A stretch of DNA of 25,066 nt from a virus. Below are positions 1,677 to 22,816 of this stretch, piece by piece. Within the stretch, counting starts at the first letter, position 1. Each line of letters starts with the position of its first letter. The stretch lies in IMG/VR virus record IMGVR_UViG_3300021197_001390, positions 1 to 25,066 of that record; one strand, written 5' to 3'. Made by a program: the position numbers and the translations under genes. The notes under the pieces are model-generated. The model did no database searches. It was not told the DNA's origin and was given only the letters and a program-made list of their open reading frames with translations.

Positions 1677-3482
1677 ATGGCACAATGGATTGCTGCAGTT
1701 GCTAGAGGACATAACTCTGGAATTTGCTTGTTAAAAGATGGTGAGATGGTTCTCTCTATTGAAGAAGAACGTCTATCAAGACATAAGTATGATGGTGGAC
1801 CCATCGCATCTATGGTAAAGATTCTTGAGTATACTGATAGGTTAGATTATTTGGTCATTGCTCATACCCAACCATTAGGTGACAGTGGTAAGATTGATTT
1901 TACTGGTGATGATTTATACACTGGTATTGCAAGAAAGTTGGGGTTAATTGATCGCAAAGAAGATCTTTATAATCATCCTCAGGTTGTTGACCTTAGTAGA
2001 ACACATCATAAACTACATGCATCTTGCGCTTTTTATAGGTCTGGATTTAAGTCTGCAGTTGCTTTGGTTGTTGATGGTGCAGGTACGTTCATTCCTATGA
2101 ACATTGGTAGAGAACAAGAACTCACTTGGGAACTTGAATCTATGTTTACTTGTGAGTATCCCGCACAGTTTAAAACAATTTATAAGCATCAGGCAGGTAG
2201 AGGTCCTTGGGGATCTGCAAAGATTGATGAATTTGATAGTAGTGGTGAGGGTGAAGAAGGAACTCATGAGTTTATTCTTGATGAGAGTGCTGGTATTACT
2301 AAGGCATATGAAGCCGTAACACAATATTGTGGGTGGGCACCTATCGAAGCTGGTAAGACTATGGGACTATTCCCATATGGAAAACCAAATGATAAAATCC
2401 CACAAATTTATTCTGATAATGGTGGACTTGCTACTTGGAAAACTGCAGATAGGGATGTAATTGTACCAACATATCCAAATGGTGCTGTGGTAAATGAAGG
2501 TAGATATGAATTTTTAAACACTTCGGTTGATGTGAATAAAGATGATTTGACCTTACTCGAAAATCGTAGGGATATGGCGTATGCTATCCAAACAGAATCT
2601 CAACAGATGGTTTTGGATCTTATTCGTAAAGCAGTTAAAATCAGCGGCAACAAAAATGTTGTTCTGTCTGGTGGATATGGTTTAAATTGTGTAGCAAATT
2701 ATTGGTATCTTGATCAACTCAAGGGTGAAGGAATTAACCTTTATGTTGAACCTGTAAGTAATGATGCGGGTACTGCCATTGGAGCTGCTTATTACATTCA
2801 TCATCAAACGACAAATGACATGACTATTAGAGATAGAATCACTGACCTTTATTATGGTCCTGAATATGAATACTCTGCTGATGATATTGAAGAAGCATCT
2901 AATCGTTGGGGAGCAACTTCAATCAAAGGTGGGGTTGAGTATGGAGATGTTATTGACTTAATTGCCAATAAAAATATTGTTGCTATGTTCCAGGGTAGAT
3001 CTGAAGCTGGTCCTAGAGCATTGGGAAATAGGTCTATCATGTATGATCCTCGTGATCCTGATGGAAAGGATCATGTTAATAATGTGAAACATCGTGAGTA
3101 TTTTAGACCCTTTGCTGGATCTATTCTTAAAGAACATGTTAATGAGTGGTTTGATCTCCGTGGAATGGATGAAACTCCATTTATGATGTATGCCGTTAGG
3201 TGTCAAGATGGAATTGAAGAAAAAATTCCTGCAATTATCCATGTTGATGGTACATGTAGAATTCAAACGGTGACTGAAGATGTTAATCGTCATTACTATG
3301 GGTTGATTAAAGAGTTTTATGATAGGACTGGGTGTCCAATAATCTTTAATACTTCATTCAATCTTGGTGGAGAACCTTTGGTAGAAACTCTTGATGATGC
3401 ACTTAGAACTTTATCAAATTCTGATATAGAATATCTTTACTTACCAGAGTATCAGATCCTAGTTGAGGTTAAGAATGGATGA
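1677..3482 (+). CDS. O-carbamoyltransferase, NodU/CmcH/TobZ family (full length)
   Basis: A 601-aa protein with both domains of the family. The Kae1-like N-domain shows GHNSGICLL (11-19), EEERLSRHK (29-37), HHKLHASCAFYRSGF (110-124), VVDGAG (131-136), GKTMGLFPYG (226-235) and VVLSGGYGLNC (328-338). The C-domain (about 390-601) shows GRSEAGPRALGNRSIMYDPR (440-459), HVDGTCRIQTV (522-532) and FNTSFNLGGEPLVET (557-571). In characterised members carbamoyl phosphate and ATP give carbamoyladenylate, and the carbamoyl group is moved to a hydroxyl, usually of a sugar. It starts 9 nt after the glycosyltransferase gene with GAGG before the ATG, and overlaps the next gene by 4 nt (ATGA). The acceptor is unknown: a sugar made by the cassette is likely, a hydroxylated DNA base or protein possible. 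Confidence 0.93.
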   Translation: MAQWIAAVARGHNSGICLLKDGEMVLSIEEERLSRHKYDGGPIASMVKILEYTDRLDYLVIAHTQPLGDSGKIDFTGDDLYTGIARKLGLIDRKEDLYNHPQVVDLSRTHHKLHASCAFYRSGFKSAVALVVDGAGTFIPMNIGREQELTWELESMFTCEYPAQFKTIYKHQAGRGPWGSAKIDEFDSSGEGEEGTHEFILDESAGITKAYEAVTQYCGWAPIEAGKTMGLFPYGKPNDKIPQIYSDNGGLATWKTADRDVIVPTYPNGAVVNEGRYEFLNTSVDVNKDDLTLLENRRDMAYAIQTESQQMVLDLIRKAVKISGNKNVVLSGGYGLNCVANYWYLDQLKGEGINLYVEPVSNDAGTAIGAAYYIHHQTTNDMTIRDRITDLYYGPEYEYSADDIEEASNRWGATSIKGGVEYGDVIDLIANKNIVAMFQGRSEAGPRALGNRSIMYDPRDPDGKDHVNNVKHREYFRPFAGSILKEHVNEWFDLRGMDETPFMMYAVRCQDGIEEKIPAIIHVDGTCRIQTVTEDVNRHYYGLIKEFYDRTGCPIIFNTSFNLGGEPLVETLDDALRTLSNSDIEYLYLPEYQILVEVKNG

Positions 3483-4006
3483 TAAAAAATTTATTTGCAA
3501 TTCCTATATTTGAGGATGTAGTTGATCTTGATAAGATTCATATTGAATCTAAAGAGTATAATACTACCTGGGATAGTGAGATTAATACCAGTTTTGGAAC
3601 GGAACATAATGTTTCAGAAGAGACTTGGATACATCTTAATGAAGTGGTATCTAGGAATATTAATGAGATACAATGCTCTTATGATAATGCTAGAATAGAT
3701 GGTATATGGAGGAATGTTTATACCAAGAATGATTATCAAGATCCTCATATTCATCCACATTCGCAATGGAGTTTTATAATATATGAGACTGTGCCAGAGT
3801 CGAAGACACTATTCTTTAATCCTTCAATGAGGGATATTCAGAATCAAATATGTGGCAATGGAACACCTCAATTTCCTCTTGACTATAAACCAAAATTGAA
3901 AGCAGGATCTATTATTATATTCCCATCATTCCTTATGCATATGGTCACTCATGGAAATGAGGGATCAACTATATCTGGCAACGTATACTTGGATTATAAA
4001 CCATGA
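3479..4006 (+). CDS. Putative 2OG-Fe(II) oxygenase-like protein
   Basis: A 175-aa protein resembling the phage 2OG-FeII_Oxy_5-type family. It has a short N-terminal IPIFE strand motif, a WRNVYTK segment, a His-rich DPHIHPHSQWSFIIYE block supplying the first iron ligands, and FPSFLMHMVTHG...SGNVYLDY supplying the distal His. No classic HxD is visible in the first block, so the metal site reads as H-rich and ligands are not certain. The start codon overlaps the stop of the carbamoyltransferase (ATGA) and the end overlaps the next gene by 4 nt, so it is probably translationally coupled. Coupling to a carbamoyltransferase suggests it may create or modify the hydroxyl that is carbamoylated; that is inference. 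Confidence 0.65.
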   Translation: MIKNLFAIPIFEDVVDLDKIHIESKEYNTTWDSEINTSFGTEHNVSEETWIHLNEVVSRNINEIQCSYDNARIDGIWRNVYTKNDYQDPHIHPHSQWSFIIYETVPESKTLFFNPSMRDIQNQICGNGTPQFPLDYKPKLKAGSIIIFPSFLMHMVTHGNEGSTISGNVYLDYKP

Positions 4007-4410
4007 CTAAAGTATTTGTTAATGGTACATTTGATCTTCTTCATAGAGGACACTTAGAACTTTTAAACTTTGCAAAGTCTTTGGGTGATAAAGTTTACGT
4101 CGGTATAGATACTGATCGAAGAGTGTCTGAAAAGAAGGGACCTACAAGACCAATATATAATCAAGAAGAAAGAAAGTTCTTCTTAGAAAATTTAAAGTCG
4201 GTACATAAAGTAAATTTATTTGATTCTGATTTTGAATTGGAAGCAATGATTAATTTTATTCAACCTGATGTTATGGTTGTTGGATCAGATTGGAAAGGTA
4301 AATCTGTGATCGGGTCTATGTATGCCTCAAAGTTAGTATTTTTTAGTAGAATTGGTGATTATGCAACCACAAAAACAATTCAAGGTATTATTGATAGGGG
4401 AAACTTGTGA
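4003..4410 (+). CDS. hldE (AT domain): Heptose-1-phosphate nucleotidylyltransferase (HldE C-domain type)
   Basis: A 135-aa cytidylyltransferase-fold protein. NGTFDLLHRGHLELL carries the HxGH nucleotide-binding motif (HRGH), followed by VYVGIDTDRRV and VMVVGSDWKGKS. The C-terminal SRIGDYATTKTIQGI corresponds to the ST.II motif of the adenylyltransferase half of HldE/RfaE. The family makes ADP-D-glycero-beta-D-manno-heptose from heptose 1-phosphate and ATP; a glycerol-3-phosphate cytidylyltransferase-type activity is the main alternative. In E. coli this domain is the C-terminal half of one bifunctional protein. Here it is a separate gene lying upstream of the kinase and overlapping it by 50 nt in another frame. 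HldD downstream supports the heptose reading. Confidence 0.8.
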   Translation: MTKVFVNGTFDLLHRGHLELLNFAKSLGDKVYVGIDTDRRVSEKKGPTRPIYNQEERKFFLENLKSVHKVNLFDSDFELEAMINFIQPDVMVVGSDWKGKSVIGSMYASKLVFFSRIGDYATTKTIQGIIDRGNL

Positions 4411-5128
4411 TGATGAATATGTCTATGGGAATGTAGAACGTATTAGTCCAGAAGCTCCTGTTCCAGTTCTTAAGTATGACAGAACTGAAACGCATAAAGG
4501 TATGTCTGCAAACGTGAGGGCAAACCTAGAGTCTTTTGGTGTGCTTGTGAATCATATTACAAATAAAAAACCCATAATAAAACGTAGGTTGGTTGATAAA
4601 GGTAGTAATCAACAATTGATGCGAGTTGATATTGAATCTGAAATCGATTCCCTCAGACCATCCGAAGTTAAGTCTGCATTTGTTCATATGCAATATGATG
4701 CAGTTGTAATATCTGACTATGATAAAGGATATTTAAATTCAAATGATATAAAAGTATTTTGTGATAATTTTAAAGGACCAATTTTTATTGATACAAAGAA
4801 GACAGAACTTTTTAGTTATCCAAATGTGTACTATAAAATTAATCAAAGAGAATATGATAACTTGATTGTTAAACCTAACATTGAAAATCTAATTGTTACT
4901 TTGGGTGAGAGGGGTGTTGCTCATATGGGTAGCATATACCCTACCGATAAAGTAAATGTATTTGATGTTGTTGGTGCTGGAGATACTTTCCTGGCAGCTT
5001 TAACCTATGCTATGTTGAAGTACGGGGATATACCTACTGCAATCGTTGTTGCTAATAAAGCATCGGCAATTGCCGTTCAGCATTATGGATGCTATACTTT
5101 ATCTGATGAAGAGGCAGAGAATTTATGA
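4361..5128 (+). CDS. hldE (kinase domain): PfkB heptose-7-phosphate kinase (HldE N-domain type)
   Basis: A 255-aa ribokinase/PfkB-family protein. LIGETCDDEYVYGNVERISP near the N-terminus followed by EAPVPVL closely follows the RfaE/HldE signature, and SANVRANLESFGV matches the substrate-binding GGAANVA..L...G segment, though the two Gly are replaced by GM. VVISDYDKGYL, FIDTKK, VTLGERGVAH and the ATP/anion-hole motif FDVVGAGDTFLAAL are present. It would phosphorylate D-glycero-D-manno-heptose 7-phosphate to the 1,7-bisphosphate. It is about 60 residues shorter than the E. coli kinase half. I chose the ATG at 4361; an in-frame TTG at 4352 is less likely. The start lies inside the nucleotidylyltransferase gene and the stop overlaps the next ATG. 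Confidence 0.82.
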   Translation: MQPQKQFKVLLIGETCDDEYVYGNVERISPEAPVPVLKYDRTETHKGMSANVRANLESFGVLVNHITNKKPIIKRRLVDKGSNQQLMRVDIESEIDSLRPSEVKSAFVHMQYDAVVISDYDKGYLNSNDIKVFCDNFKGPIFIDTKKTELFSYPNVYYKINQREYDNLIVKPNIENLIVTLGERGVAHMGSIYPTDKVNVFDVVGAGDTFLAALTYAMLKYGDIPTAIVVANKASAIAVQHYGCYTLSDEEAENL

Positions 5129-5478
5129 GAGCAATATTACCAGGAATGAAAACATATTGTGTTGATATTGATGGTGTAATCGCTGCAAAGAATGGGACTT
5201 GCAAGACCTGTAAGTATGAAGCGAGTACTCCTATGATTGAGAATATTAATAAGATTAATAAGTTGTACGATGATGGTCATTACATTAAATACTTTACCGC
5301 TAGGGGTATGGGTACATATGATGATAATGCTCAGTTGGCGGAAGCACGTTGGTTGGAACTTACAAAATTGCAGTTAAGTGTATGGAATTGTAAGTACCAC
5401 GAACTTATTATGGGCAAACCATCTGCCGATTACTACATAGATGACAAGGCGGTAAATTCAGATGACTTCTTCAATTAA
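5125..5478 (+). CDS. Small HAD-superfamily phosphatase-like protein
   Basis: A 117-aa protein with a minimal HAD fold: motif I CVDIDGVIA (nucleophile Asp and acid/base Asp), motif II as FTARGMG, and a late acidic motif YYIDDKAV. It resembles the small HAD phosphatases found in capsule and LPS loci. The ATG at 5125 overlaps the kinase stop (ATGA); the ATG at 5146, just before the first strand, is an alternative start. Its position right after the heptose kinase makes it a candidate for the heptose 1,7-bisphosphate phosphatase step (GmhB role), but it lacks GmhB's usual length and zinc-binding cysteines in recognisable spacing (it has a CKTC at about residues 29-32). Function is inferred from context only. 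Confidence 0.7.
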   Translation: MRAILPGMKTYCVDIDGVIAAKNGTCKTCKYEASTPMIENINKINKLYDDGHYIKYFTARGMGTYDDNAQLAEARWLELTKLQLSVWNCKYHELIMGKPSADYYIDDKAVNSDDFFN

Positions 5479-5815
5479 ACACGTCTCTAAGGGGTGGGGA
5501 TATGAGAAGTGGATTGTTAATGGTGAATTATATTGTGGTAAACTTCTCTTTTTTAATGCTGGGAAGAGGTGTTCTTGGCACTATCATAAAATAAAAGATG
5601 AGACCTTCTACTTACAGAGTGGTCTCATCTCTTTGTATCATGGGTTTACTGATGATTTATCTGATTCCCAAATAACTATATTAGAACCTGGGGATAAATT
5701 TTATATACCAGTAGGAATGAGACATCAGATGATTGCTTTAGATGATTCTGAATTGTTTGAATTTTCTACACAACACTTTGATTCTGATAGTTATAGGGTT
5801 ATAAGCGGCGATTAA
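5462..5815 (+). CDS. Single-domain cupin, sugar-phosphate isomerase-like
   Basis: A 117-aa RmlC-like cupin. Cupin motif 1 is CSWHYHKIKDETFYLQSG, with metal-ligand pattern HxH...E, and motif 2 is LEPGDKFYIPVGMRHQM, with the distal His. GWGYEKWIVN near the N-terminus is typical of mannose-6-phosphate isomerase/GDP-mannose pyrophosphorylase C-terminal cupins. It may isomerise or bind a sugar phosphate made in this cassette. The ATG at 5462 lies 17 nt inside the preceding gene and is preceded by AAGGCGG. Its stop overlaps by a few bases the stop of the convergent hldD gene. Confidence 0.8.
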   Translation: MTSSIKHVSKGWGYEKWIVNGELYCGKLLFFNAGKRCSWHYHKIKDETFYLQSGLISLYHGFTDDLSDSQITILEPGDKFYIPVGMRHQMIALDDSELFEFSTQHFDSDSYRVISGD

Positions 5816-6612
5816 AGGTTTAGATAGTCTTCAATGGTTTTGAATTTATAGTTACCAACCCAATTCATATCTGCACAGGTGTATGTTTGGTACTTACCTT
5901 TTAAATGATCTGGAAATGGGATGGTATTAATTTTACCACCCTCTTTTTTTGCAACTAAATCTGCAACATGTTGGAATGAGACTGGAGATCCAGTACCAAG
6001 GTCATAAATTCCACTACCAGCATTATTGTTTAGAACAATATCTACAACATCATCAACGCATATAAAATCTCTAAGGAATTTATTTGATCCACTAAAGAGA
6101 TTTAACTCTCCAGTCTCTCTAATTTCCTTTGTAAATTTGCTGACAGGACTGGCTTGATTACCTTTATGCTCTTCTCCATCACCGTAAACGTTAAAATATC
6201 TAAATCCTTGAACTAAAGTGAACTGATCTATGTTGTCCATGACAGTATAATCTATCTGCAACTTTGAGATTGCATATTGATTGAGAGGATTGTATGTTTT
6301 AGACTTTTGATACACACTTTGATTCCCATAGACGGATGCAGACGATGCATACTTAATTGGGAACTCATATACGATCGCTTTATTTAAGAGGGCACATGAG
6401 AATCCTACATTAAAGTGCCACAATTTTTGTAAATCTTTCTCTGTAGTAGAAGATATTGCACCTTGATGGATAACTAGATCAACTTTATTCCACTCATCAA
6501 AATCTCTGAATAGTCTCCAAGCATCTTCTTGATCTACTAACATTACTTCTTCGGCAAGTTTATCTGCAAAACATTTGCCAATAAAACCTTTAGCGCCAGT
6601 TAAAATTATCAT
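5812..6612 (-). CDS. hldD: ADP-heptose 6-epimerase (HldD/RfaD type), SDR epimerase
   Basis: A 266-aa extended short-chain dehydrogenase. It has NAD(P)-binding TGAKGFIG (5-12), SSASVYG (90-96), catalytic YAISK (Y113, K117), and the HldD-like run GFRYFNVYGDGEEHKGNQAS (136-155), then RDFICVDDVV (181-190). The RYFNVYG...EGHKG.MAS segment is characteristic of ADP-L-glycero-D-manno-heptose 6-epimerase rather than GalE or RmlB. The reaction inverts C6 of ADP-D-glycero-D-manno-heptose. It is slightly shorter than E. coli HldD (about 310 aa). It faces the cupin gene and is driven by its own minus-strand promoter at 6628-6656, unlike the other heptose genes. Confidence 0.88.
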   Translation of the reverse strand: MIILTGAKGFIGKCFADKLAEEVMLVDQEDAWRLFRDFDEWNKVDLVIHQGAISSTTEKDLQKLWHFNVGFSCALLNKAIVYEFPIKYASSASVYGNQSVYQKSKTYNPLNQYAISKLQIDYTVMDNIDQFTLVQGFRYFNVYGDGEEHKGNQASPVSKFTKEIRETGELNLFSGSNKFLRDFICVDDVVDIVLNNNAGSGIYDLGTGSPVSFQHVADLVAKKEGGKINTIPFPDHLKGKYQTYTCADMNWVGNYKFKTIEDYLNL

Positions 6613-9236: not shown

Positions 9237-10904
9237 ATGCGAGTTTTGAGTATGCGTGGGGGGCATGACGCATCAGTATCAATTATGAACAACGGTAAAA
9301 TAGAATTATTTTTAAAAGAAGAGAGATATTCTGGGGTAAAGAGAGATTCTAATCTTAAGTTTTGTTGGGGAGGGTTGATTGCCAGCAAGTCTTTAACTAA
9401 TTTGGACTATGCAGTATTGCAAACTACAGATGAAGATCATCTATCGTTTTATGGCAGACAAATACTTATATTTTCTCCTGATGTAAAAATTATATCAACT
9501 TTAGATAATGGTAAACTTGAACTTGGGCGGCATCATCATTTATTCCATGCAAGTAATTCTTTTTATTCTAGTGGTTTTGATGATGCATTAGTTGTAGTTG
9601 TGGATTCTGCTGGTGGATATCTTGGACCACTTGATAATCCATCAATGTATGAGAATCAATCTGTTTATCATATGAATTATGATAAATGTGTGCCATTGTA
9701 TAAGGGGTACAAAACTCCAGGTGATTCTTGTTGGAATGGCATTCGTAAACCTATTACTAAAAGGATTGGTAAATGTGATATTGGGGTGTCATTTGGTTGG
9801 GAAGGTATTGGTATAGGGGATCTATACAATACTGCACCTATGACAATGGGACAAACGATTCAAGATTGTGGTAAGGCAATGGGGTTGGCATCTTACGGTA
9901 AATCTGTTGATAGATTGAGTAATCTTTTTGATAGTGGAAATTTTGAAAAAGTAATTAATTATTTTGAAGATGTTAATCCATCATTGTCAGATTTTTTTAC
10001 GTTTAAAAGTGACTCCAATATATCAATTGATATTACCGAAGAAAATTATATGATTTTTGCTGACTATTGTTATGAAGTACAGACTCAAACTTCTAATAAA
10101 ATATGTGAGATAGTTGATACTTATATTAAAAGGACTGGTATAAAAAATGTATGCATTGGTGGTGGATATGGAATGAATATTGTTAATAATTATAATCTTA
10201 TTAGAAAATTTCCTGAAGTTAATTTTTATTTTGATTCTCTTTGTGAAGATACTGGGTTGTCTTTGGGTATAGCAAAGTTTGTTTATAGGAAATTGTCAAA
10301 GGATAAGAAGATATATGCGAATGATGGTTTAAGTTTTCATGGACTTAATCATGATGTAACTCCATACAATGGGCACAAATCATCTATAAATGACATATGT
10401 GCTGTCTTGATGCAAGACAAGTCAGTAGGCGTCTTCTACGGGCAGGCAGAGGCGGGACAGAGAGCGTTGGGTAATAGATCAATACTCTTTAACCCTTTGA
10501 ATTCTGATGCTAAAGACATTGTTAATAAAATTAAAAAAAGGGAGTGGTATAGACCGTTTGCTGCTATAGTACTTGAAGAAGATGCACATTTGTATTTTGA
10601 AAATTCGGTTCCTAGTCCAGAGATGACACTTTGCTTTCCTGTAAAGTCTGATATAATTCCAGGTGTAACACATGTTGATGGTACTAGTAGGGTTCAAACA
10701 ATTAGTTCAGACCATTTCCTATATGAATTACTTATTGAGTTTAAAAAATTGTCTGGACATGGTATTTTATTAAACACCAGTTTAAATCTTGCTGGAAATC
10801 CCTTAGTTGAGACTCCTCAACAGGCTATTGACATGCTAAGCGAGTCTTCTCTAGACTATCTTTGGTTTTTTGAAACCAAACAGTTGTTTAAATCCACTTT
10901 TTGA
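9237..10904 (+). CDS. O-carbamoyltransferase, NodU/CmcH family (second copy, full length)
   Basis: A 555-aa two-domain protein. N-domain motifs are GGHDASVSIM (8-17), EERYSG (28-33), HHHLFHASNSFYSSGF (99-114), VVDSAGG (121-127), GKAMGLASYG (212-221) and CIGGGYGMNIVNNY (306-319). C-domain motifs are GQAEAGQRALGNRSILFNP (402-420), REWYRPFAAIVL (435-446), HVDGTSRVQTI (479-489) and LNTSLNLAGNPLVET (512-526). It is about 46 residues shorter than the 1677 copy and clearly diverged, so this is not a recent duplication. It starts ATG 9237, 25 bp from the divergent bilin reductase gene. The acceptor is unknown. Confidence 0.92.
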   Translation: MRVLSMRGGHDASVSIMNNGKIELFLKEERYSGVKRDSNLKFCWGGLIASKSLTNLDYAVLQTTDEDHLSFYGRQILIFSPDVKIISTLDNGKLELGRHHHLFHASNSFYSSGFDDALVVVVDSAGGYLGPLDNPSMYENQSVYHMNYDKCVPLYKGYKTPGDSCWNGIRKPITKRIGKCDIGVSFGWEGIGIGDLYNTAPMTMGQTIQDCGKAMGLASYGKSVDRLSNLFDSGNFEKVINYFEDVNPSLSDFFTFKSDSNISIDITEENYMIFADYCYEVQTQTSNKICEIVDTYIKRTGIKNVCIGGGYGMNIVNNYNLIRKFPEVNFYFDSLCEDTGLSLGIAKFVYRKLSKDKKIYANDGLSFHGLNHDVTPYNGHKSSINDICAVLMQDKSVGVFYGQAEAGQRALGNRSILFNPLNSDAKDIVNKIKKREWYRPFAAIVLEEDAHLYFENSVPSPEMTLCFPVKSDIIPGVTHVDGTSRVQTISSDHFLYELLIEFKKLSGHGILLNTSLNLAGNPLVETPQQAIDMLSESSLDYLWFFETKQLFKSTF

Positions 10905-18000: not shown

Positions 18001-19053
18001 ATGTATATTCTTGGAATTAATATATCACATCATGCATCAATATCTCTTTTGCATGATGGTGAGGTGGTATATTATATGGAGGATGACAGGTATAGTGGTA
18101 GAAAAGAAGAAGAGTGGGTATATGGTGATGATAAAAAATGTTTAGGTGACATTAAACATTACACCACTCATATAGACCATGTGATATTTGCATCTTGGGG
18201 TAAGTCTGGTGACTGTGATTATCCTGATTCTGATTTGATTGATGACATCATTCTTGATCTTCAAAGATATGGTTTAACATTCAAACAAATTCATTACAAC
18301 TGGGAGCATCATCTTTATCATGCCTGCAGCGCATTCTACTGTTCTGGATTTAATGAAGCTGCTGCTTTGATTCTTGACGGCGGAGGAGTCTCATTACTTG
18401 ATCGTAAAGAGGGAGAGTCTATGTACTACTTCACTCAAGGTAGTTACGATGTCATTAAGAAAGTTTACTACGCATGGGATGCACTTGAAAGAGATTATAC
18501 CAATTATAAAATAAATGATACTGATGTAATGTCTTCTACTATAAGTTGTGGGTGGATCTTTAATAGTCTTCAAGGAATTCTTGGTTTAGAACCAGGAAAA
18601 TCTATGGGTCTATCTTCTTATGGTAATTCAGATAGGTTTAACGATGATAATTGGTTTAAGTATGAAAAAGAAACTGAAACTTGGATTACTGACAATCAAA
18701 AAATATTAAATACCTATAGGACATTGGTTGGAGACTCAAAATACACACCATATGATGATGAAGATCCAGGCATTGAATTTCAAGTTGCCTCTGATTTGGC
18801 TAAAAAAGCTCAAGAAGAGACAAGAGACCATACAATTCGATTGATTAAACAATTGTTAAGTAAAACCGAAACAAAAAATATTGTATTGTCAGGCGGTTAT
18901 TTTTTAAACTGCGTGAATAATTATGAGTATTTGAAAGAGTTTCCTGATGTAAAATTTTACATCGATCCTGTATGCCATGATGGCGGTATCTCAATAGGTG
19001 CTGCTAAGTTTTTGTGGCATCATGTTCTAAATAAAAATCATCCCTCTAGGTAA
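18001..19053 (+). CDS. Carbamoyltransferase-like protein, Kae1-like N-domain only
   Basis: A 350-aa protein that aligns by motif with the first domain of the two full-length carbamoyltransferases here: SHHASISLLHDG (9-20), DDRYSGRK (28-35), HHLYHACSAFYCSGF (103-117), LILDGGG (123-129), GKSMGLSSYG (199-208), IVLSGGYFLNCVNNY (about 309-323) and DGGISIGAAKF. The chain then ends (HHVLNKNHPSR, stop) where the others begin the C-domain, so the GxxEAGxRALGNRS and HVDGTxRxQT motifs are absent, and PhoH follows 9 nt later. It is either a relic or a stand-alone acceptor-binding half that needs the C-domain from another protein. The N-domain motifs are intact, which argues against simple decay. Confidence 0.85.
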   Translation: MYILGINISHHASISLLHDGEVVYYMEDDRYSGRKEEEWVYGDDKKCLGDIKHYTTHIDHVIFASWGKSGDCDYPDSDLIDDIILDLQRYGLTFKQIHYNWEHHLYHACSAFYCSGFNEAAALILDGGGVSLLDRKEGESMYYFTQGSYDVIKKVYYAWDALERDYTNYKINDTDVMSSTISCGWIFNSLQGILGLEPGKSMGLSSYGNSDRFNDDNWFKYEKETETWITDNQKILNTYRTLVGDSKYTPYDDEDPGIEFQVASDLAKKAQEETRDHTIRLIKQLLSKTETKNIVLSGGYFLNCVNNYEYLKEFPDVKFYIDPVCHDGGISIGAAKFLWHHVLNKNHPSR

Positions 19054-20814: not shown

Positions 20815-21399
20815 ATGACTCCCTTTGACGTATATAAAACATATCTTGCAATGAAGAATCACTTCACAAAAGATAAATACGACTATCACAAATATTGTGG
20901 TAAAACTCGTGCTTCCCTTCAATCTTTTTATAGGAGGAAGGATAGGTATTGGTTTGAGAAAATGAGTAGACAAAAAAACGACAAAGAAGTTGTAGATTTC
21001 TTTGTATCTAATTTTGTTAATTCAGGAGAAAGTGTTTGGATCGGGCAGATGATTCGAGAAGGAGAATCTGCATATACTGGATGGCAAAAAAGAGTTCAAA
21101 GTTTGAGTTATCTTTTCAGAGAGGAAGTTGAAAATATGATTGTAAATACTGATTTGGATTCTTTGTTTGAATCTAAATCTGGTCAACATCCGCGAATACT
21201 TAAGTTGCATCTTCAGGGACATATATCTATTGAGACTTTGATTATTCTTGATCGTATCTTAGTATTTAAAAATAATTTTGATAAAAAATTAAATGATCCT
21301 GTTTGGGAGACAGTATCTAAAACTATGAGGAAGTATGATCCTTTCCTAAATATCGATATATTTAAATTTCGCAAAATTTTAAAGGACTGTGTTTTATGA
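20815..21399 (+). CDS. 59: gp59-like helicase loader
   Basis: A 194-aa protein starting MTPFDVYKTYLAMKNHFTKD. KYDYHKYCGKTRASLQSFYR, RKDRYWFEKMSRQ and SNFVNSGESVWIGQMIREGE correspond to T4 gp59 (..YDVIKYNW..YQKRRDKYFFQKLSE..SNLVANQDAWIGD..). gp59 loads gp41 helicase onto gp32-coated DNA. A GTG at 20794 would add seven residues; the ATG at 20815 fits the T4 start better, though its ribosome site is weak. The gene overlaps the next by 4 nt (ATGA). Confidence 0.88.
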   Translation: MTPFDVYKTYLAMKNHFTKDKYDYHKYCGKTRASLQSFYRRKDRYWFEKMSRQKNDKEVVDFFVSNFVNSGESVWIGQMIREGESAYTGWQKRVQSLSYLFREEVENMIVNTDLDSLFESKSGQHPRILKLHLQGHISIETLIILDRILVFKNNFDKKLNDPVWETVSKTMRKYDPFLNIDIFKFRKILKDCVL

Positions 21400-21740
21400 C
21401 GTTTTTTGATTCTGATGTTGTAAGGGCAGAAATTGTCCATATTAATGAACTTCAAGAAAAACTTTACAGCAAGATGTTTAGTTTTTATAGTATGGGTAAA
21501 CAGGATAAACTTGATCATGTTGAGTTACTAAAAACCCTTATTGACAAGCAAAAAATACTTTATGCTAGATTGTCTTTATCTGACGATCCAGAAGCAATAA
21601 AAATGAAGCAGAATATTGTTAAATCTGCTACCATGCTCGGGATGCCTGAAAATGTGGATATGACTGTGATTTTTAGCAATATGGAGAAACTGATCGATCA
21701 CATGAAAGATCAGGTCGAGCAAACTGGAAATATTGATTGA
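21396..21740 (+). CDS. DUF1825 family protein
   Basis: A 114-aa helical protein: MTFFDSDVVRAEIVHINELQ, KQDKLDHVELLKTLIDKQKI, LYARLSLSDDPEAIKMKQNI and ATMLGMPENVDMTVIFSNME. This is the DUF1825 family, which otherwise is found in cyanobacteria, with the LSLSDDPEA and MLGMPE..DM motifs. In the T4 layout this position might hold a recombination or late-function gene, but it does not resemble UvsY. The role is unknown. It lies between gp59 and gp32, 95 nt before the gp32 start. Confidence 0.82.
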   Translation: MTFFDSDVVRAEIVHINELQEKLYSKMFSFYSMGKQDKLDHVELLKTLIDKQKILYARLSLSDDPEAIKMKQNIVKSATMLGMPENVDMTVIFSNMEKLIDHMKDQVEQTGNID

Positions 21741-21748
21741 CAACTACG

Positions 21749-21797
21749 GGCACTTGCACTAATATAGGTTCGTACTCGCCGCAAGTGCCTAGAGTAC
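21749..21797 (+). promoter_or_regulatory. gp32 leader hairpin / candidate pseudoknot operator
   Basis: A perfect 9-bp stem GGCACTTGC (21749-21757) with GCAAGTGCC (21781-21789), loop 21758-21780. In the loop GTACTC (21772-21777) is fully complementary to GAGTAC (21792-21797) two bases 3' of the stem, so a 6-bp second helix can form. Downstream is a stretch of unstructured A-rich leader, GAGGTAA (21824-21830) and the gp32 ATG at 21836. This resembles the T4 gene 32 autoregulatory pseudoknot; with stem 1 at full 9 bp the 2-nt connector is too short, so partial stem opening or two alternative hairpins are more realistic. Confidence 0.65.
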
Positions 21798-21835
21798 ATA
21801 AAGGCCAAATACAAAACAAATACGAGGTAATACGA

Positions 21836-22816
21836 ATGTCTTTTGCTAATCTCAAAAAACAGTCTTCTCTTGGATCTTTGACTTCCAAACTAGTCAAAGA
21901 GGTTGAGAAGATGAATAGCAACTCTAGTGGCGGTGATGATCGTCTCTGGAAACCCGAAATGGATAAGACGGGTAATGGTTATGCCGTTATTCGATTCCTT
22001 CCTGCTCCCGATAGTGAAGATCTTCCATGGGTGAAGATGTACTCTCATGGATTCCAGGGTCCTGGTGGTTGGTATATTGAGAATTCTCTGACTACTTTGG
22101 GTCAGAAAGATCCTGTATCCGAATATAATCGTACTCTTTGGAACAGTGGAGATAATAGCAACAAAGAAATTGTACGCAAGCAAAAACGTAAATTGTCATA
22201 TTATAGCAATATTTACGTTGTGAAGGATCCTGCCAATCCTCACAATGAAGGACAAGTTTTCTTGTTTAAGTTTGGTAAAAAAATCTTTGATAAGGTTATG
22301 GCAGCAATGCAACCTGAATTTGAAGATGAGACTCCTATTAATCCATTTGATTTTTGGCAAGGTGCGAACTTCAAACTGAAGATTCGTAAGGTTGATGGTT
22401 ATTGGAATTATGATAAGTCTGAATTTGATTCTACTAGTGTTCTACTAGATGATGATGACGCTCTTGAAGCACTTTGGAAGAAGGAGTATTCTCTTACTGC
22501 CATGACTGCTCAAGATCAGTTTAAATCTTATGAAGCACTTCAGACACGTCTGGATTATGTTCTTGGACGCAAAGGATCATCTCGTAGGCAAGATGAGGAA
22601 CTTCAGGGTGAAGATGATATGCGTGGTAACTTCACGCCTAGTTTTGGTGGACGCCAAGAAGAGACTCAACTACCTGCGGAATTGAAGAAAGAACTTAATG
22701 ATCTTCCTTCAAGCGGCGGATTTAATTCTCCTGATATTATGGCGAAGGATTCTTCTAACTCTACTGAAGAGGAGGATGATGCTTTGAGTTACTTCCAAAA
22801 ACTTGCTGAGAGTTAA
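21836..22816 (+). CDS. 32: gp32 single-stranded DNA-binding protein
   Basis: A 326-aa gp32. The N-terminal MSFANLKKQSSLGSLTSKL is the basic cooperativity segment; the OB core has DRLWKPEMDKTGNGYAVIRF, LPAPDSEDLPWVKMYSHGFQ and WYIENSLTTLGQKDPVSEYN; the later INPFDFWQGANFKLKIRKVD is also typical. The C-terminus is acidic (STEEEDDALSYFQKLAES), as in T4, where it binds partner replication proteins. The T4 zinc-site cysteines are absent: the region after GWYIEN has no Cys. The start at 21836 is fixed by GAGGTAA and the MSFANLKK start; the frame is open upstream but covers the leader. Confidence 0.95.
   Translation: MSFANLKKQSSLGSLTSKLVKEVEKMNSNSSGGDDRLWKPEMDKTGNGYAVIRFLPAPDSEDLPWVKMYSHGFQGPGGWYIENSLTTLGQKDPVSEYNRTLWNSGDNSNKEIVRKQKRKLSYYSNIYVVKDPANPHNEGQVFLFKFGKKIFDKVMAAMQPEFEDETPINPFDFWQGANFKLKIRKVDGYWNYDKSEFDSTSVLLDDDDALEALWKKEYSLTAMTAQDQFKSYEALQTRLDYVLGRKGSSRRQDEELQGEDDMRGNFTPSFGGRQEETQLPAELKKELNDLPSSGGFNSPDIMAKDSSNSTEEEDDALSYFQKLAES

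Follow-up and report, generated by a model that had tools for sequence, protein, structure and literature searches.

We asked whether the leader of gp32 in an uncultured cyanophage (IMG/VR virus record IMGVR_UViG_3300021197_001390, of which we analysed a stretch of 25,066 nt, hereafter the window) holds a pseudoknot operator comparable to that of phage T4, as an initial annotation had proposed. A pseudoknot translational operator is present in gene 32 of T4, T2 and RB69 (PMC535899, PMC3014915), and the T2 knot is a coaxial H-type fold by NMR, whereas the RB49-type gene 32 leader is without a pseudoknot (PMC3014915). A 2010 review raised the possibility that no viral pseudoknot other than the T4-type gene 32 knot autoregulates translation, and urged that diverse T4-like phages be studied (PMC3014915).

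A hairpin and a crossing helix upstream of gp32

Upstream of gp32, a perfect 9-bp stem (S1) joins GGCACTTGC (21749-21757) to GCAAGTGCC (21781-21789) around a 23-nt loop (21758-21780), and a G21748·U21790 wobble adds one pair. Inside the loop lies GTACTC (21772-21777); its exact reverse complement, GAGTAC (21792-21797), begins 2 nt past the stem, and the two strands make up the crossing helix S2. The initial annotation had described the hairpin and its 6-base loop match correctly to the base, and the A-rich open leader and gp32 ribosome site that it reported next were found as well, at a T4-like distance. The region comprises the following features.

21396..21740, + strand: DUF1825 protein gene (114 aa; Pfam PF08855, E = 3.9e-10), whose stop codon overlaps the -35 box
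21737..21742, + strand: predicted -35 box TTGACA, with a 17-nt spacer to the -10 box
21748..21757, + strand: S1 5´ arm GGGCACTTGC, nine Watson-Crick pairs from 21749, within the -35/-10 spacer
21760..21765, + strand: predicted -10 box TAATAT (TATTAT, TATAAT, TACTAT, TACACT, TATATT or TATACT in relatives)
21772..21777, + strand: S2 5´ strand GTACTC, whose first base is the predicted +1, 7 nt past the -10 box
21781..21790, + strand: S1 3´ arm GCAAGTGCCT
21792..21797, + strand: S2 3´ strand GAGTAC
21798..21835, + strand: A/C-rich, weakly structured leader of 38 nt, candidate gp32-binding tract
21801..21812, + strand: gp32-leader box AAGGCCAAATAC, shared by almost every cyanophage gp32 leader
21824..21827, + strand: Shine-Dalgarno-like GAGG, 8 nt before the ATG
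21836..22816, + strand: gp32 gene (ATG at 21836; Pfam PF08804, E = 9e-48; phrog_224, E = 5e-127)

The other perfect stems of at least 9 bp with a 10-30-nt loop in the window all have a GC count of at most 5, and S1 is the sole such stem with a 6-nt match between its loop and its 3´ flank. The fold of the window sequence alone is unremarkable (z = -1.8, weak evidence), and the case for the element therefore rests on its relatives. Given joining loops of 12-14, 3-4 and 1-5 nt around a long S1 of 9-12 bp, a coaxial H-type S1/S2 fold would be strained and is unlikely. By an estimate from A-form geometry, the short joint between S2 and S1 can be bridged only with the helices side by side, not coaxially; forming S2 in addition to S1 is possible but tight, because only 4-5 nt join them on the 3´ side in the window. 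Rfam gave no match for the window, for any of the four natural versions of the element described below (A-D) or for the T4 leader.

Covariation among natural versions of the element

IMG/VR was scanned for the exact S1 inverted repeat, which was found in 60 contigs; about 47 of these matches are gp32 leaders of other contigs, and the loop is always 23 nt. A wider scan, in which the two central bases of each S1 arm were left free, yielded two more versions upstream of gp32. The free bases were complementary in every gp32 match; the two non-gp32 matches among the new contigs (L262 and L265) had non-complementary central bases (GA/GA). Scans based on gp32, with no pairing condition imposed, returned 185 distinct leaders, 14 of which have the element, including a fourth version (D, from L311).

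Version A: S1 GGGCACTTGC/GCAAGTGCCC, S2 GTACTC/G(A or G)GTAC
Version B: S1 GGGCATCTGC/GCAGATGCCC, S2 GTGCCC/GGGCAC
Version C: S1 GGCAATTGC/GCAATTGCC, S2 GTATCC/GGATAC, both helices pairing with their own letters
Version D: S1 AAGGGGACTTGC/GCAAGTCCCCTT (12 bp), S2 GTGTCC/GGACAC

Across these versions S1 spans 9-12 bp and encloses a loop of 22-23 nt. The element is present in 39 of 210 distinct gp32 leaders but absent from all 12 isolates and single-cell viruses examined, and no isolate that carries it was found by BLAST with the leader of version A, B or C. The length of the stem between the promoter spacer and downstream sequence is two-peaked, at most 6 in other leaders and at least 9 in those with the element.

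Among 20 distinct leaders of versions A, B and D, all cells of the alignment (320/320) hold standard pairs. Six pairs have changed on both sides (four in S1 and two in S2) versus 2.8 in shuffles, none of the 500 shuffles scoring as high, and sliding the partners against each other lowers pairing to 28-52%. Version C was scored apart, since MAFFT misaligned its S2 strand; with that misalignment included, 97% of cells still pair across 33 leaders. Covariation in relatives was the check set in advance by the initial annotation, and compensatory changes are seen in both helices across versions A-D. The S2 pair 40-61 occurs as U-A, U·G and C-G among relatives, and the outer S1 pair in the lineage of the window is G-C (L098), G·U (the window and L125) or A-U (L108). 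The G·U intermediates at these two pairs look like the wobble steps expected of an RNA helix. The register between S1 and S2 is near-constant (L2 of 3-4 nt). In leaders of the common version A with GGGTAC (for example L132), a rival hairpin, GUGCCC/GGGUAC, joins the S1 3´ arm to the S2 3´ strand; it possibly competes with S2 in promoter-made RNA as a third state.

Versions A and B fall together in one gp32 clade, and the first tree set C apart from them. For all four versions plus L049, a single clade is compatible with the data (AU p 0.39); without L049, it is rejected (p 0.006). L049 is the sister of version C, with a gp32 89% identical to it, and has neither the S1 repeat nor the promoter; another sequence with a CGGTC/GACCG hairpin replaces the promoter and S1/S2. 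The simplest history would be one gain followed by inheritance, with loss of both repeat and promoter in L049. One gain and inheritance leave few independent changes, about four, all of them consistent with pairing. Because most cyanophage gp32 leaders are without the structure, the element is, judging from this distribution, derived within one cyanophage lineage, and the proposed conservation of its logic between this phage and T4 is not supported.

A predicted promoter inside the element

The initial annotation made no mention of a conserved promoter, which lies within the element. Of 160 distinct gp32 leaders, with or without the element, 158 have TTGAC-N17-TAnnnT, compared with 75 of 800 shuffles reaching that score; the promoter is in the same place in isolates including S-SM2, Bellamy, P-TIM68 and P-SSM2. 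With TTGACA/TATAAT-like boxes 16-18 nt apart and a conserved position, it is a predicted sigma70-type promoter; for early genes of cyanomyoviruses, transcription by the unmodified host sigma70 polymerase is expected (PMC2984593). Our literature search for published cyanophage start-site maps found none. The predicted +1 coincides with the start of S2 in versions A and B and lies within 1-2 nt of it in D and C. With the S1 5´ arm in the -35/-10 spacer and S2 at the predicted +1, RNA made from this promoter would be without S1 and contain only S2. The predicted +1 is 64 nt from the ATG with the element and a median of 39 nt without it, and most relatives have a +1 region (GTACAC...) that runs directly into the open leader.

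The gene order gp59-DUF1825-gp32 is also found in isolates. All 37 scored leaders with the element have the DUF1825 stop codon no further downstream than the -35 box, and the spacer is thereby available to the S1 arm; in other leaders this stop codon is most often at the -10 box (65/115). In leaders that do not have the element, short inverted repeats close on either side of the -10 box were considered as well and are not above shuffles. The gp32 promoters of L025 and L209 are near-perfect palindromes (ACTGCTATGATAGCAGT and CTGCTATAATAGCAG) centred on the -10 box, no commoner than in shuffles.

Downstream of the promoter, A makes up 47% and C 25% of the final 36 nt of cyanophage gp32 leaders, a stretch predicted to be less paired than its shuffles in 170 of the 203 leaders. 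The distance from S2 to the ATG in element leaders is 35-40 nt, most often 36. Just 3´ of the predicted start, almost every cyanophage gp32 leader has a gp32-specific box (ACACAAGCCAAATCC-like; ARGCCRAATMYR), and five of six tested records have a single copy of ARGCCRAATMYR, located in their gp32 leader. As a candidate for an ancestral target of gp32 or RegA, this box may be preferable to the knot. Unrelated 5´-terminal hairpins at or near the predicted +1 were seen in L296 (S-8S56; GTTGGG..CCCAAC) and L301 (ACG-2014h; GTGAT..ATCAC), and the gp32 leaders of L457 and L458 also have unrelated 5´-terminal hairpins (GTGGTAGA..TTTACCAC, GTATAGAAAC..GTTTCTATGC).

Possible functions of the leader

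The element resembles the operators of T4, T2 and RB69 in lying directly upstream of gene 32 and in having a hairpin loop that pairs with the immediate 3´ flank, giving two crossing and covarying helices; as in T4, with the end of the knot as we read it, about 36 nt of open leader separate it from the AUG. The arm sequences are unrelated, the T4 leader sharing none of them, as the initial annotation had held, and Rfam matches neither. S1 is 9-12 bp with a 22-23-nt loop, as opposed to about 7 bp and about 9 nt read from the T4 sequence, and the cyanophage leader is open, A/C-rich and 35-40 nt long, with no UUAAA repeats in the window leader, whereas the T4-type segment, about 40 nt and unstructured, carries UUAAA/UAAA repeats as far as the ribosome site. 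Unlike the T4 operator, the cyanophage element has a promoter inside it and is not universal among these phages. By sequence and leader motifs, the element falls outside the T4 class. Most cyanophages have the promoter and an open leader with no knot; in this they are like the RB49-type leader, but they share a promoter and a gp32-specific box. Since the element is absent from most cyanophages, it is no conserved remnant of T4 logic; T4-like logic is plausible by analogy, but not as an ancestral trait, and at most the element may work like the T4 operator. Bacterial mRNAs of the ompA type have stabilising 5´-terminal hairpins. S2 is comparable to these as the predicted 5´-terminal hairpin of promoter-made mRNA, but differs in having a loop with complementarity to the promoter spacer.

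With about even confidence, we interpret the locus as a structured gp32 leader built around its own promoter, with a shape that depends on where the transcript began. Transcription from the local sigma70-type promoter, at or near G21772, would give RNA with S2 alone as a 5´-terminal hairpin, followed by the open A/C-rich tract with the ribosome site. Read-through RNA from gp59-DUF1825 would also have the S1 5´ arm and could form the S1/S2 pseudoknot at the same place; S1 should dominate there, since the hairpin energies in the window are about -15 kcal/mol for S1 and about -6 kcal/mol for S2. The structure might bound or nucleate cooperative gp32 binding on the open tract, with autorepression as in T4, and/or shield the 5´ end of the message; a role for gp32 in this leader is plausible from the T4 example. 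Possible, but on balance doubtful, is a more specific scheme of a promoter threaded through an RNA pseudoknot, in which read-through RNA folds a gp32-sensing knot and promoter RNA only the 5´ hairpin, polycistronic and monocistronic gp32 messages are controlled differently, and the operator evolved in cyanophages independently of T4.

Other readings assign the repeats differently. S1 might be a DNA operator, its two inverted half-sites at -24 to -15 and +10 to +19 of the predicted +1 (with 32 bp, or some three helical turns, between their centres) binding a dimeric or looping regulator of the gp32 promoter, with only S2 acting as RNA. The S1 5´ arm does lie between the -35 and -10 boxes, outside the promoter's own transcript, the arm sequence hardly varies within version A, even in relatives whose gp32 identity is as low as 70%, and L049, the only relative in the lineage without the repeat, is also without the promoter. 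However, the repeat and its half-sites were found once only in a 246-kb phage record, which does not fit a regulon operator, and from version to version both arms change jointly at inner positions while staying strictly complementary. The G·U step in the outer S1 pair also argues against DNA recognition, as does the near-constant S1-S2 register, which one RNA fold would keep, though common descent would too; we regard this reading as rather unlikely. Comparably unlikely, in our judgement, is a stability or processing element with no gp32 role, in which S2 (or S1/S2) guards the gp32 mRNA from 5´-end-dependent decay or read-through mRNA is processed at S1. The placement of S2 at or within 1-2 nt of the predicted +1 is consistent with this, and unrelated hairpins occupy the same place in S-8S56 and ACG-2014h, but the 5´-end variant leaves the conservation of S1 unexplained.

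A full T4-type operator, in which gp32 nucleates on the S1/S2 pseudoknot, spreads over the leader and represses its own translation, was the reading proposed by the initial annotation. The pseudoknot topology behind it is backed by covariation, and the open leader and the 36 nt from S2 to the ATG in most versions (36 nt also following the T4 knot as read here) are in line with it. RNA made from the gp32 promoter itself, however, is unable to form the whole knot, most cyanophages are without the knot, and the window leader has no UUAAA repeats; we regard this reading as improbable. Perfect 9-bp stems arise a few times per 25 kb, but a chance hairpin is refuted by the conserved compensatory changes; no T-run follows 21789 and no intrinsic terminator was called at the element, and we give a chance hairpin or a transcription terminator hardly any weight.

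For the study of gene 32 pseudoknots, the locus offers a covariation-backed candidate in uncultured cyanophages, whose four natural versions are ready-made compensatory mutants. The near-universal gp32 promoter and leader box provide the means to test a simpler, probably ancestral mechanism.

Elsewhere in the window, three carbamoyltransferase genes (1677-3482, 9237-10904 and 18001-19053) lie within 25 kb, the third encoding the N-terminal domain only. A nucleotide-sugar cassette (4003-6612) contains cytidylyltransferase-like and PfkB kinase genes that overlap by 59 bp, together with a cupin gene and, on the other strand, an NAD-dependent epimerase gene.
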